Shown here: in pieces, positions 17,240-55,350 of the stretch
How the letters are laid out: each line of letters opens with the position of its first letter
Numbering within the stretch: the stretch's first letter is position 1
Origin: Flavobacteriaceae bacterium
GTDB lineage: Bacteria > Bacteroidota > Bacteroidia > Flavobacteriales > Flavobacteriaceae
NCBI GenBank assembly: GCA_947461425.1
Contig: CANHKZ010000002.1
Location: 1 to 59,317, forward strand
Length of the DNA: 59,317 nucleotides
Reading direction: 5' to 3'
The notes under the pieces: generated by a model
What the model saw: only the letters and a program-made list of their open reading frames with translations
Told to the model about the DNA's origin: nothing
The model's database searches: none
Position numbers and translations under genes: made by a program

Positions 17240-18586
17240 TTATTTTTTATCTTTTGTGTTTCCCTCTTTGGGTTGGTAATAATTAGGTGGAAATCCATTT
17301 AATTGTCGCCATAATTCAAACCAAATAGGCACATTATCTAATAAAGCTAGAGTTTGAGCCCCAGAACCCATACTAATCTGTTTTGGCCAAGCCTCTTCTT
17401 CTTGGTCTGGAGCAATTAAAACTCTAAATTTTCCATTTGTACTAATAAAATTTTCCACCGCTACAATTTTCCCGCCAAAAGTTCCATAACTTAAGTTAGG
17501 CCACCCAGAGAAAACTATGGTTGGCCATCCATCAAACCAAATACGTACTTTTTCACCTTTGTGAACTAATGGTAAATCATTCGGACTTACAAACGTTTCT
17601 ACTGCGATATCATATTTTGAAGGCATGATACTTACAATTTGAGTTCCTTCTTTGATGATTTCTCCTAGACCAGATTGAATTGCTCTGTTGACATACCCAC
17701 TTTGTGGTGCTTTAATAAAGTACATTTCATTACGAATCGTATAATTTACATATTGATTTTGAAGCTTATTTACTTGAGCTTCTGTATCATATTGATTACT
17801 TAATGCTGTAAATTGATCACTTCTTGCCTTTGAACCTTTTTCAGTATATTCAGCAATAATTCTATTTATTTCCACCTTAGTATTGATAAACTCATTTTTG
17901 CTTGTGAGTAATTTATTTTCTTGTGTTATAATTTTAGCTTCCGCTTCTTGTAATTTCAATCTTTTTTCTTCCACATCAGTTAAGGGTTTCAAACCCTCTT
18001 TATTCAGTGTTACAGAACGATTAAACTGGGTTATGGCAATTTTTATTTGGGTTTTAACTGCTTCTAAATCCATGCTGTCACTTTTTACTTTTAAAAGTGA
18101 TTGACGAATTTTATTTTTTGCTTGTTCTAGTTTTAGTTTTTTTTCATTTTCAATAGCATCAATTTGGCTTGTAAGGACATTTACCTTTCCATCATATGAT
18201 GACATCGCCATTTTTTTTGCGTCTACTTGATTTTTGATATTTTTTATCAAATTAGGATCAATGTAGTCTTCTTTTATCTCAGAAATAAATAAAATTGTAT
18301 CTCCTTTTTTAACATAGTCACCCTCTTTTACATACCATTTTTCGATTCTACCAGCAATAGCTGAATGAATAGTTTGTGGTCTTTGATCCGGTTTCAATGT
18401 AGTTACTGCTCCTGAACCCGAAATGTTCTGAGTCCAAGGAAGGAATAGAATTACTAATCCTATTAATGAGACATACAAAATTATTTTGTTTAGTATTTTA
18501 TAATGTGGACGATTAGCCAAATTTTTAACTGTACTAAACTGGTCGATATTTTCCTCTATTGGATTTTTTTTAGAAATATTAAGCAT
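17240..18586 (-). CDS. HlyD family membrane-fusion (periplasmic adaptor) protein
   Basis: A 448-aa adaptor with one transmembrane segment at about 34-53 (IILYVSLIGLVILFLPW). It has a biotinyl-lipoyl half (AIAGRIEKWYVKEGDYVKKGDTILFIS), a long coiled coil (about 115-275), the second lipoyl half (FIKAPQSGYVNRAIQSGLGEIIKEGTQIVSIMP) and a beta-barrel with VRIWFDGWPTIVFSGWP. It links the inner-membrane ABC protein (5 nt upstream) to the TolC channel (12 nt downstream), as in type I secretion or drug export. Confidence 0.92.
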   Translation of the reverse strand: MLNISKKNPIEENIDQFSTVKNLANRPHYKILNKIILYVSLIGLVILFLPWTQNISGSGAVTTLKPDQRPQTIHSAIAGRIEKWYVKEGDYVKKGDTILFISEIKEDYIDPNLIKNIKNQVDAKKMAMSSYDGKVNVLTSQIDAIENEKKLKLEQAKNKIRQSLLKVKSDSMDLEAVKTQIKIAITQFNRSVTLNKEGLKPLTDVEEKRLKLQEAEAKIITQENKLLTSKNEFINTKVEINRIIAEYTEKGSKARSDQFTALSNQYDTEAQVNKLQNQYVNYTIRNEMYFIKAPQSGYVNRAIQSGLGEIIKEGTQIVSIMPSKYDIAVETFVSPNDLPLVHKGEKVRIWFDGWPTIVFSGWPNLSYGTFGGKIVAVENFISTNGKFRVLIAPDQEEEAWPKQISMGSGAQTLALLDNVPIWFELWRQLNGFPPNYYQPKEGNTKDKK

Positions 18587-18591
18587 AGATA

Positions 18592-20256
18592 TTATTTTTT
18601 CGAATCATTAATTATTTTACCATCTTCCATTGTAATCTTTCTAGAGCATTTTTTTTGCCAATAGTTATTTTTTGAAGATATAATAATGGTCCATTTGTTA
18701 GCTGAATCAGTTAAAAAGTCTATAATTTCATGAGTAGCTTTCTCATCCATTTTGTCTAACGGATCCTCTAAAAATAAAATTTTAGGTTTGTTAATTATAC
18801 TTCTCGCTAATAATATTTTTTGGGCATTTGATGACGATAGTTGTCTACCATCAGGATAAATTCTAGTTTCTAAACCTTCAGGTAAAGTTTTTATAAAAGA
18901 ATCCAATTTCACGCATTCAATTGCCCATTTTATATCTTCATTTGATATATCGGGGTTGTTTAGTGTTATGTTATCTAAAATACTACCATCAAAAGGAGTT
19001 TCTCCCTGAGTGATTATACTTATCTGAGAACGATAGTGATTTAGATCAATTTTTCGGTAGGTATCATCGTTGATAAAAATAGATCCAGATGTTGGCTCCA
19101 TTATGCCGGATAAAATTCTCATAAGAGTTGTTTTTCCTGACCCATTATTTCCTTCTAAAAATATCTTTTCTGAAGGTTCGATTAACAAATTCACATTAGA
19201 CAAAATTTCATCTGTAGAATCAGGAAATTTGAATGTAAGATTATCTGTTGTTAATGCTATATTGGTAAAACAAAAATCAGATTTTACATCATTAAATCCT
19301 TCCATTTTAAGATCAACAATCTGTCCAATTTTTTCTACAGAAGTCAATACATCATACAAGCTTTCTAATCCAACAATAATTTTCTCTACTGAGTTTATCA
19401 CCAATAAAATGATGATTTCAGCAGCAACAAATTGTCCAATGTTCATTTTCTGATTTAACACTAAAAATCCTCCAATTAATAACAAACTAGCTGTTATAAT
19501 TACTTTAAAGATGATAAGGTGTGTGTATTGTTGTTTAATTACCTTAAAATGTTTTTCTCTGTAATGAACATACTCTGCAACTAAACTATTATTTTTTTCA
19601 AGTGCAAAAGAAAAGTTTTCTTGCTTTTTGAAACTGAAATTATTTCTAGCTATTTCTTGAAGCCAACTCACCACTTTATACTTGTATTTGGATTCCTTCA
19701 TACTTGATGACAAACCTGGATAGTAGGAAAATTTGAAGATAAGATAGAGTAAAATTAACAGTAAAACTCCAAAAAAGATGAAGAAAGGATGGTAAAGGGA
19801 TAATAAAATAATACCAAATATAATTTGTAACAAAGCCGTTGAAAAATCAATTAATAGTTTTGAAGTTCCTTTTTGGATCGTTAATGTGTCAAAAAAACGA
19901 TTGGCTAATTCTGGTGGATATTGATTATAAATCTCTTCAAATTTTATTTTTGGTAAGCGATAACTAAATTCAAACGAAGAACGAACGAATATTTTTTGTT
20001 GTAAATTTTCAGTTATTCGCAATTGCATTAGGGACAAAACACCAACAAGTGCTACCCCAATAACTACAATTATTACTAATACAATCCATGAAATACTTAC
20101 TCTTCCTGCTTGGATTAAATTAATAATAGCTTGAATTCCTAAGGGCAATGAAAGACTTACTAAACCTGAAAATATGGCATAAAAAAATATTTGAGAGATA
20201 TCTTTTTTATCTACTTGTAGTAAATTATAAAATCGTTGTAATGGTGTTGGACTCAT
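18592..20256 (-). CDS. ABC half-transporter (membrane domain fused to ATPase) with degenerate catalytic motifs
   Basis: A 554-aa fused permease-ATPase. The first ~320 residues form a type I exporter membrane domain with six hydrophobic segments; there is no N-terminal peptidase domain. The ATPase has an intact Walker A (EGNNGSGKTT, about 368-377) and Q-loop (IITQGETPFDGSI). However, the signature reads LSSSNAQK instead of LSGGQ, Walker B reads ILFLEDPLD (Asp-Glu order swapped to Glu-Asp), and the switch-His position reads IIISSKNN with no His. It lies between the TetR gene (6 nt) and HlyD gene (5 nt). Activity may be slow or rely on a different mechanism. Confidence 0.9.
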   Translation of the reverse strand: MSPTPLQRFYNLLQVDKKDISQIFFYAIFSGLVSLSLPLGIQAIINLIQAGRVSISWIVLVIIVVIGVALVGVLSLMQLRITENLQQKIFVRSSFEFSYRLPKIKFEEIYNQYPPELANRFFDTLTIQKGTSKLLIDFSTALLQIIFGIILLSLYHPFFIFFGVLLLILLYLIFKFSYYPGLSSSMKESKYKYKVVSWLQEIARNNFSFKKQENFSFALEKNNSLVAEYVHYREKHFKVIKQQYTHLIIFKVIITASLLLIGGFLVLNQKMNIGQFVAAEIIILLVINSVEKIIVGLESLYDVLTSVEKIGQIVDLKMEGFNDVKSDFCFTNIALTTDNLTFKFPDSTDEILSNVNLLIEPSEKIFLEGNNGSGKTTLMRILSGIMEPTSGSIFINDDTYRKIDLNHYRSQISIITQGETPFDGSILDNITLNNPDISNEDIKWAIECVKLDSFIKTLPEGLETRIYPDGRQLSSSNAQKILLARSIINKPKILFLEDPLDKMDEKATHEIIDFLTDSANKWTIIISSKNNYWQKKCSRKITMEDGKIINDSKK

Positions 20257-48285: not shown

Positions 48286-48461
48286 GGATTTAATACAGAA
48301 ATATTAATTTCTGAAGCTCTTTTTTAATTATTTAATCCTTTTTTCTTATAAAAAGGACTTATTTTTTAATTCTTGCGGCTGGTTTAAGACTCTTTTATAA
48401 ACAGGTTTAAATTAGTTTTTAAACCGTTGATTCTCTAAAAAATAAGGCTTTTAGGCCCAAA

Positions 48462-48507
48462 GTGGGTAAACTTATTAACAAAGTGGTATATTGTGGTAAA
48501 ATGTGGT
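48462..48507 (+). promoter_or_regulatory. Candidate MraZ operator: GTGG[T/G] direct repeats at 10-bp spacing
   Basis: GTGGT starts at 48483, 48493 and 48503, exactly 10 bp apart (5-bp box plus 5-bp spacer), with GTGGG at 48462, two turns further up. The geometry equals the known E. coli MraZ operator (TGGGN repeats with 5-nt spacers). They lie just upstream of the mraZ -7 element, so autoregulation of the dcw cluster is inferred. Confidence 0.6.
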
Positions 48508-48528
48508 AAAATATTTTATATTTTTGCT

Positions 48529-48536
48529 AAGAATCA
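48529..48536 (+). promoter_or_regulatory. -7 promoter element of the dcw cluster (mraZ promoter)
   Basis: TATTTTTG, 15 nt before the mraZ TTG start codon and 26 bp after the start of the last GTGGT box. Confidence 0.55.
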
Positions 48537-48551
48537 TTTAAATCTAATTTT

Positions 48552-49025
48552 TTGAACACAATTGTAGGAACATATGAATGTAAAGTTGATGCTAAAGGGA
48601 GGGTATTGTTACCATCTCCTTTGAAAAAGCAATTAGCTTCTTCATTGCAAGAAGGTTTTGTATTGAAGCGTTCCGTTTTTCAGCCTTGTTTGGAATTGTA
48701 TCCAATGCAGGAGTGGAATTTAATGATGCAAAAAATCAACAAGTTGAACCGTTTTGTAAAAAAGAATAATGATTTTATTCGTCGTTTTACCGCGGGTGTA
48801 AAGGTGGTCGAAATTGATGCTTTAGGACGATTATTAGTGCCTAAAGATTTAGTAGGATTTTCAAGTATTACTAAAGATGTTGTTTTTTCTTCAGCAGTTA
48901 ATATTGTTGAAATTTGGGATAAAGACTTGTATGAAAAATCAATAAATGGAGAAGATATTGATTTTGCTGATTTGGCTGAAGATGTTATGGGTAATGTAAA
49001 TGATGATTACAATGGAATATCATAA
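48552..49025 (+). CDS. mraZ: Division/cell-wall cluster transcriptional regulator MraZ
   Basis: A 157-aa protein with two AbrB-like SpoVT repeats (about 5-55 GTYECKVDAKGRVLLPSPLKKQL and 78-125 GVKVVEIDALGRLLVPKDLVGF). It forms a ring that binds direct repeats before its own gene and regulates the dcw cluster. The start codon is TTG: the family-like N-terminus MNTIVGTYECKVDAKGR begins there, and the nearby ATG is out of frame. The gene end overlaps rsmH. Confidence 0.93.
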   Translation: MNTIVGTYECKVDAKGRVLLPSPLKKQLASSLQEGFVLKRSVFQPCLELYPMQEWNLMMQKINKLNRFVKKNNDFIRRFTAGVKVVEIDALGRLLVPKDLVGFSSITKDVVFSSAVNIVEIWDKDLYEKSINGEDIDFADLAEDVMGNVNDDYNGIS

Positions 49026-49908
49026 TCCGGTTTTGTTGCATGAGTCGGTAGACGGTTTGAATATTAAACCAGACGGTATTTATGTAGATGTCACTTTTGG
49101 AGGCGGCGGTCATTCAAAAGAGATTTTAAATCGACTTGGTCCCAATGGAAAGTTATTTGCCTTTGATCAGGATGAAGATGCTTTGGCGAATACTTTAGAA
49201 GACAATCGCTTTGTTTTAATCAATGAAAATTTCAGATTTATCAAACGTTTTTTACGCTTTCATAATGTTAAATCTGTTGACGGAATATTGGGGGACCTCG
49301 GAGTTTCTTCACATCAATTTGATGTAGCCGAAAGAGGTTTTTCAACTCGGTTTGATGCCGAATTGGATATGAGAATGAGTCAAAAAAATGATTTAAGCGC
49401 ATACAGAGTTGTTAATGAGTATGACGAAGAGAGTTTAAGAAGGGTTTTTTTGGATTATGGTGAGTTGAAAAATGCACCCGCAATTGCTAGAGTGATTTTG
49501 GAAGCAAGAGAAAAAATGCCTATTAGAAATACAGAGCAATTAAAGCAAGTGTTGAGTCGTTTTTTACCAGCGCACAAAAGCCATAAAATTTTAGCTCAAA
49601 TGTACCAAGCAATTCGAATTGAGGTGAATTTAGAGATGGATGTTCTAAAAGAATTTCTAGAGCAGTCTTTGGAAATATTGAATGTAGAAGGACGTTTAAG
49701 TGTCATTTCGTACCACTCTCTTGAAGACCGATTGGTGAAGCGTTTTGTTAAAAACGGAATGTTTGAGGGTGAGCCAGAACGGGATTTTTTCGGAAATTTT
49801 TCTGTTCCTTTTAAAACTATTGGAAAACTAATTGTTCCTAATGAAGAAGAAATTAGAGAAAATAATAGGGCGCGAAGTGCTAAATTAAGAATTGCCGAAA
49901 AAATATAA
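49012..49908 (+). CDS. rsmH: 16S rRNA (cytosine1402-N4)-methyltransferase RsmH (MraW)
   Basis: A 298-aa SAM enzyme methylating C1402 of 16S rRNA. Start MEYHNPVLLHESVDGL is the family N-terminus; in-frame ATGs at 49000 and 49003 are possible alternatives. SAM motif YVDVTFGGGGHSKEIL, then GILGDLGVSSHQFD, MRM, and the C-terminal ISYHSLEDRLVKRF. It overlaps the mraZ end by 14 bp, suggesting coupling. Confidence 0.95.
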   Translation: MEYHNPVLLHESVDGLNIKPDGIYVDVTFGGGGHSKEILNRLGPNGKLFAFDQDEDALANTLEDNRFVLINENFRFIKRFLRFHNVKSVDGILGDLGVSSHQFDVAERGFSTRFDAELDMRMSQKNDLSAYRVVNEYDEESLRRVFLDYGELKNAPAIARVILEAREKMPIRNTEQLKQVLSRFLPAHKSHKILAQMYQAIRIEVNLEMDVLKEFLEQSLEILNVEGRLSVISYHSLEDRLVKRFVKNGMFEGEPERDFFGNFSVPFKTIGKLIVPNEEEIRENNRARSAKLRIAEKI

Positions 49909-49917
49909 TACTAGAAT

Positions 49918-50265
49918 ATGAAAAATGGTGTTTATGGCATATTAAAAGCGCGATTTCTTCTTGATGAAGATGCAATAAAAAACTGGCGGTTTATAGTGTT
50001 TATAATTTTCTTGGTTATTGTTATGATTTACAATACGCAAAGTTACGAGAAAAAAGTATTCCGTATCTCAGAGCTTACCAATGAAGTAAAAGAATTGCGT
50101 TCTGAATTTGTAGACAGACGTTCTGAATTAATGAAGTTAAAAATGGAGTCAACCGTTGCAAGACAAATGGAAGCCAGGCAAATACTTCCATCAACAGTGC
50201 CTCCTATTAAAATTAAAGTAGTTAAAGAAGTAGAAAAAGGTTTTTTTGATAATTTATGGCAATAG
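49918..50265 (+). CDS. ftsL: FtsL-like cell-division protein
   Basis: A 115-aa bitopic protein: cytosolic head, one membrane helix at about 24-42 (WRFIVFIIFLVIVMIYN) and a periplasmic coiled coil (ISELTNEVKELRSEFVDRRSELMKLKMES). Sequence is poorly conserved in FtsL proteins; the assignment rests on topology and place between rsmH and ftsI. It overlaps the PBP gene by 10 bp. Confidence 0.85.
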   Translation: MKNGVYGILKARFLLDEDAIKNWRFIVFIIFLVIVMIYNTQSYEKKVFRISELTNEVKELRSEFVDRRSELMKLKMESTVARQMEARQILPSTVPPIKIKVVKEVEKGFFDNLWQ

Positions 50266-54996: not shown

Positions 54997-55350
54997 ATGA
55001 AAGAGAATATCATTCAACAGAAATCTTTCCTTTTTGCAGTCAGAATAGTTAATTTATATAAACATTTAATCACGAGTAAAAAGGAGTTTGTTTTAAGTAA
55101 ACAAATATTAAGAAGCGGAACATCCATTGGATCCAATATAGAAGAATCTATTGGAGGTCGTTCAGATAAAGAGTTCTTATTCAAGTTGGAAATTTCATAT
55201 AAAGAAGCTCGTGAAACAATTTACTGGCTAAAACTTTTGAAAGAAACAGAATATATTTCTACCGCTGAGTTTGAAAGTATTTTTAGTGAAGCAGAAGAAA
55301 TATGTAAAATATTGGCAAAAATAATAATAACCCTAAAAGGCAAGAATTAG
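54997..55350 (+). CDS. Four-helix-bundle protein (23S rRNA-intervening-sequence/S23 family)
   Basis: A 117-aa helical protein with hallmark segments FLFAVRIVNLYKHL, VLSKQILRSGTSIGSNIEESIGGRSDKEFLFKLEISYKEARETIYWLKLL and ICKILAKIIITL, as in the S23/IVS family (related to Avd of diversity-generating retroelements). Family members are often encoded in mobile inserts, for example in spirochaete 23S rRNA genes; biochemical role unknown, probably nucleic-acid binding. It sits between mraY and murD with inverted repeats on both sides and no own promoter visible. Confidence 0.88.
   Translation: MKENIIQQKSFLFAVRIVNLYKHLITSKKEFVLSKQILRSGTSIGSNIEESIGGRSDKEFLFKLEISYKEARETIYWLKLLKETEYISTAEFESIFSEAEEICKILAKIIITLKGKN

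Follow-up and report, generated by a model that had tools for sequence, protein, structure and literature searches.

A predicted DnaA box abuts the MraZ operator at the dcw promoter of Flavobacterium and other Bacteroidia

It is proposed that the promoter of the dcw cluster carries a composite operator, in which MraZ would block access to the -33 region and the replication initiator DnaA would occupy a box right beside the MraZ array, so that dcw transcription would follow the state of replication; we give this reading a probability of roughly 0.7. What the sequences establish is the presence and fixed spacing of the sites, how well they are conserved, and that the DnaA-like box is the same as the oriC boxes of the genus; that the two proteins bind, that the operon is repressed and in which direction DnaA acts we infer. 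The MraZ operator itself fits a known kind, and the new part is the predicted DnaA box that abuts the array. The initial annotation of this DNA recognized the MraZ boxes and missed both the DnaA-box element that lies between box 1 and box 2 and the cover of the -33 region by the array. Our literature search, partial in coverage and with most subscription journals outside it, returned no report of a DnaA box at mraZ in Bacteroidota, which is weak evidence of novelty.

To our knowledge, the link between replication and division in Bacteroidota is largely open. Through this pairing, expression of the division genes may be linked to chromosome replication, and a class-wide, single-copy predicted DnaA box at the promoter of mraZ-rsmH-ftsL-murE and the remaining dcw genes offers a concrete, mutable site at which to test this link. 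The analysis also yields a DnaA-box consensus for Flavobacterium, TTATNAACA, and a predicted oriC at rpiB-rnr.

The MraZ box array and its gene context

The gene mraZ (48552..49025, forward strand, TTG start) encodes a transcriptional regulator of the PF02381 family (E 1.3e-23; 83.2 bits against a cut-off of 23), in which two matching stretches mark a two-domain protein and whose sequence matches the solved MraZ structures 1n0e, 9qlg, 9sx6 and 9qlr. TTG occupies the start position in 78 of 80 Flavobacterium loci, as in the source genome, a conserved non-ATG start. The first dcw gene after mraZ is rsmH/mraW (49000..49908, forward; PF01795, 4.7e-94), whose start overlaps the end of mraZ by 26 nt (49000-49025), suggesting translational coupling of the two genes. 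It is followed by an ftsL gene of the Bacteroidota type, FtsL_2 (49918..50265, forward; PF19579, 5.8e-41), and the full order reads mraZ, rsmH, FtsL_2, a penicillin-binding protein with a PASTA domain, a Mur ligase, mraY and murD, past which lie a large membrane-protein ORF and a murG-like ORF (the unscanned ORFs of the cluster are named from context). Between mraY and murD the cluster also holds a 23S_rRNA_IVP four-helix-bundle gene (54997-55350; PF05635, 6.4e-29). No mraZ was found in the listed genomes of family groups f16 and f82; the f16 genomes measure 300-600 kb, the size of endosymbionts, and a published Blattabacterium genome is without dnaA and without DnaA boxes (PMC2768785).

Upstream of mraZ the operator-promoter stretch reads CCCAAAGTGGGTAAACTTATTAACAAAGTGGTATATTGTGGTAAAATGTGGTAAAATATTTTATATTTTTGC. 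It contains four boxes on the forward strand: box 1 (GTGGG, 48462..48466), box 2 (GTGGT, 48483..48487), box 3 (GTGGT, 48493..48497) and box 4 (GTGGT, 48503..48507), the last standing 16 bp before a predicted -7 promoter element TATTTTTG (48519..48526, forward) of the Bacteroidota TAnnTTTG type. The start positions of the four boxes had been given exactly in the initial annotation, which described the boxes as exact 10-bp repeats; this is true of boxes 2-4, and box 1, at 21 bp or two helical turns from box 2, falls outside the 10-bp register. The assignment of box 2 draws on its sequence, on genome-wide pattern counts and on conservation in the genus; the GTGG core of box 1 is kept in 80/80 Flavobacterium loci and is not universal outside the family. 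In Bacteroidota the -33 element lies about 19-21 bp upstream of the -7 element, so box 3, which overlaps the expected position, covers the -33 region. The mraZ ORF begins 45 bp downstream of the array, with the dcw genes after it. The three-box array arose in none of 20,000 dinucleotide shuffles of 48401-48551 and has one copy in the whole 59-kb window (the entire stretch of DNA analysed, 59,317 nucleotides); the GTGGT triple occurs once in the 1.9-Mb assembly, against 0 for the reversed control pattern.

The comparison of sequences upstream of mraZ took in 80 Flavobacterium species together with wider samples of the order, the class and the phylum. Two or more boxes in phase precede the gene in 80/80 loci of the genus, 69/70 of the order and 64/70 of the class, where shuffling gives means of 1.5, 0.6 and 0.7, respectively, although the sampled genomes are kin, so that shuffle counts overstate significance and are not probabilities of independent events. 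Three consecutive boxes occur in 173 of 215 loci, and of the 195 loci in which both the last box and TAnnTTT[GA] were found, 160 have the box 15-16 bp before the element. Of 61 Flavobacterium genomes, 56 carry exactly one relaxed three-box array and none carries the reversed control, and MraZ therefore looks like a one-site local regulator in Flavobacterium. The conservation upstream of flavobacterial mraZ on which the earlier reading of an MraZ operator depended is thus present, both in the genus and across Bacteroidia, and that reading holds: judged by its sequence, the single-copy array directly upstream of mraZ is an ordinary MraZ operator that fits the published boxes, with binding and repression predicted. 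The suggestion that GTGGT instead of TGGG is a Bacteroidota signature does not survive the wider sample. Among 42 family representatives of Bacteroidia the fifth base at box 2 is T in 19 and G in 17, and the sampled genomes of family group f5 have mainly GTGGG; with T or G throughout Bacteroidia, the contrast is not a phylum difference. Outside Bacteroidia, MraZ boxes are found in most loci of the phylum sample and lie downstream of a TTGACA-type promoter wherever such a promoter is visible, as in E. coli.

The DnaA-like box and its counterparts at the probable oriC

Between boxes 1 and 2 lies TTATTAACA (48472..48480, forward), a predicted DnaA box that ends 2 bp before box 2, starts 47 bp upstream of the -7 element and is identical to 9-mers at the probable oriC. 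In 80 Flavobacterium species this place reads AAACTTAT[T/C]AACA; eight of the nine positions never vary, and the one exception is position 5 (65 T, 15 C), which is the degenerate fifth position N of the DnaA-box consensus TTWTNCACA as used in PMC7561715. TTATTAACA differs from this consensus by A for C at position 6, and the C-type forms TTATCCACA and TTTTCCACA stand at this position in 12 loci from other lineages. As position 6 is mostly A here and C in the reference consensus, membership among DnaA boxes rests on the comparison with oriC. A second DnaA-like 9-mer, TTATAAACA, is found at 48395-48403, about 70 bp upstream of the composite operator.

When TTWTNMACA was sought on both strands in the 154 nt before mraZ, it was found in 80/80 loci of the genus, 68/70 of the order and 62/70 of the class (shuffling gives means of 14, 11 and 10), against a background of 4.9% of 2,733 other windows from the same loci. 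By family group of Bacteroidia (n=61), the match is forward in 46, on the reverse strand only in 8 and absent in 7, and the latter two classes count against the composite reading; the reverse-only matches carry less weight, since TGTGGAWAA is in part similar to an MraZ box. A single copy of the rigid composite TTWTNMACA-NN-GTGG-N6-GTGG is found in each of 75 of the 296 class genomes, against a total of 2 for the reversed control, and in all 31 of these 75 genomes whose mraZ had been located, the coordinates of the composite fall just upstream of this gene.

An inverted box pair in the source genome led to the rpiB-rnr intergenic region (G000 contig C1, about 17950-18740), a stretch of about 800 bp and about 80% AT that carries TTATGAACA (reverse), TTATTAACA, TTATAAACA and TTATCAACA (reverse). 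Three other genomes of the genus, F. ammonificans among them, show these boxes at the same spacings of 134 bp and about 118 bp, and a fourth, G048, shows the 134-bp spacing. GC3 skew, noisy in single 20-kb samples, switches at rpiB-rnr and again about half a chromosome away in both complete relatives (n=2). From these features the rpiB-rnr intergenic region is very probably the oriC of Flavobacterium, and its boxes are the same 9-mers, TTATNAACA, as at mraZ. Across the source genome as a whole, TTATYMACA is rarer than its reversed control, with 120 occurrences against 219. A two-box cluster upstream of dnaB was considered as oriC and rejected, since the GC3 skew switches at rpiB-rnr instead. 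TTATNAACA boxes are conserved around the accA end and upstream of dnaB (L241 2734-2888, L240 2942-3096), which makes the region of this replicative helicase gene a possible further DnaA target. DnaA boxes beside dnaA are few and scattered and form no flanking clusters, as the gene lies away from oriC in this group; the same holds in Elizabethkingia (PMC8994065).

In domain IV of the source-genome DnaA protein, residues R399, R407, K415, R432, D433, H434 and T436, which we take to be the DNA-contact residues, are conserved. Both P423 and T435 are replaced by A in the source genome, where box position 6 is A rather than C, and across 18 genomes residues 423 and 435 differ from E. coli where position 6 is A. 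Residue 435 is T in G151, which has a C-type site, and A or S with A-type sites, G059 being the exception; with few lineages and this one exception, a covariation of residue 435 with box position 6 is suggestive only.

A longer MraZ site that included TTATYAACA could also account for the fixed 2-bp offset, and the first alternative to be weighed is that the operator is for MraZ only, with TTAT[TC]AACA an extended flank involved in ring closure or DNA bending and DnaA uninvolved. The distance from the end of TTWTNMACA to the next box is indeed fixed, at 2 bp (66 cases) or 12 bp (21 cases, with one box missing), and the flanks AAAC and AACAAA are likewise invariant or nearly so across the genus. 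However, the element is absent from E. coli mraZ and from 22 of 24 outgroup mraZ upstreams of the phylum sample, almost all of which have MraZ boxes, while the other two are without a phased box pair. As the outgroup boxes mostly lack TTWTNMACA, the composite operator, as far as this sample resolves it, seems to have originated in Bacteroidia. In family group f5, moreover, the neighbouring MraZ box is degraded to AAGTC, AAGGC, GAGTC or AAGTA, yet TTATNAACA is intact in 12/12 and varies at N alone, which argues that the element is constrained on its own and not merely as the flank of an MraZ box. The same 9-mers also stand at oriC without the MraZ triple array. We consider the MraZ-only explanation unlikely.

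Less likely still is that TTAT[TC]AACA serves another factor, or is an upstream promoter element, and not a DnaA site. The element does lie upstream of a promoter in AT-rich DNA, and DnaA binding here is a prediction from sequence; against this stands the limitation of the variation within the genus to the degenerate DnaA position, and a wider forward spectrum that includes the canonical box (TTATCAACA 39, TTATTAACA 36, TTTTCAACA 25, TTATCCACA 7, TTTTCCACA 5, others 5). An IHF site was tried and rejected, as TTATTAACA breaks what we presume to be the IHF consensus. That the repeats are chance or low-complexity DNA without a regulator, in an AT-rich region with short motifs, is so improbable as to be negligible, being refuted by the shuffles, the single copy in 56 of 61 genomes and the GTGG cores kept in 80/80 loci.

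Proposed regulation and comparison with known systems

In the composite operator, MraZ, the first gene product of the cluster, would bind the 10-bp-phased AAAGTGG[T/G] boxes 2-4, with box 1 joining the MraZ site from the same face of the DNA two turns upstream of box 2, and the bound protein would cover the -33 region and repress its own operon. DnaA would bind TTATTAACA at 48472-48480, abutting box 2 and, in Flavobacterium, sandwiched by box 1. As this site abuts the MraZ boxes, DnaA and MraZ would be expected to compete for, or share, one stretch of DNA, and dcw transcription would then track how much DnaA is available and, through it, the initiation of replication. Against this, isolated DnaA boxes are weak sites as a rule. 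As to the sign of the effect, we lean slightly towards DnaA antagonizing MraZ rather than co-repressing with it. A class-wide ancestral DnaA-MraZ switch, with DnaA occupancy acting as the direct gate on MraZ repression and replication initiation setting the timing of division-gene expression, is a more tentative extension that we regard as possible, if slightly on the improbable side.

A link between the replication initiator and an mraZ-rsmH-ftsL operon has a counterpart in another phylum, since the yllB-ylxA-ftsL-pbpB operon of B. subtilis is under DnaA-dependent control. The E. coli mraZ operator (Pmra) likewise has GTGGG three times ahead of mraZ, at intervals of exactly 10 bp, and the likeness to E. 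coli MraZ-site geometry claimed in the initial annotation is confirmed. In E. coli, however, the boxes lie downstream of a TTGACA element and no DnaA box occurs within 154 nt upstream of mraZ, whereas in Flavobacterium they cover the -33 region and abut the DnaA-like box. According to the summary in PMC8475190, which cites Eraso 2014, E. coli MraZ is a repressor of its own cluster, and MraZ repression is reported there for both E. coli and M. genitalium. The geometry also matches the Mollicutes MraZ consensus (AAAGTGKN3)3 (Fisunov et al. 2016, as quoted in PMC5282649): the AAAGTGG core and the 10-bp period are shared, and boxes 2-4 fit the quoted consensus almost to the letter. Unlike in the Bacteroidia composite, a DnaA-box neighbour is not mentioned for this operator in the literature consulted.

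A parallel to the pairing itself comes from E. coli, where the reported MraZ site at the mioC promoter overlaps its DnaA box (Eraso 2014, as cited in PMC4446571). This box is TTTTCCACA. The mioC case likewise combines an MraZ site and a DnaA box in one promoter and is a precedent for contact between MraZ and DnaA. The mioC gene lies beside oriC, whereas the pairing in Bacteroidia is at the dcw promoter itself and is kept across the class.
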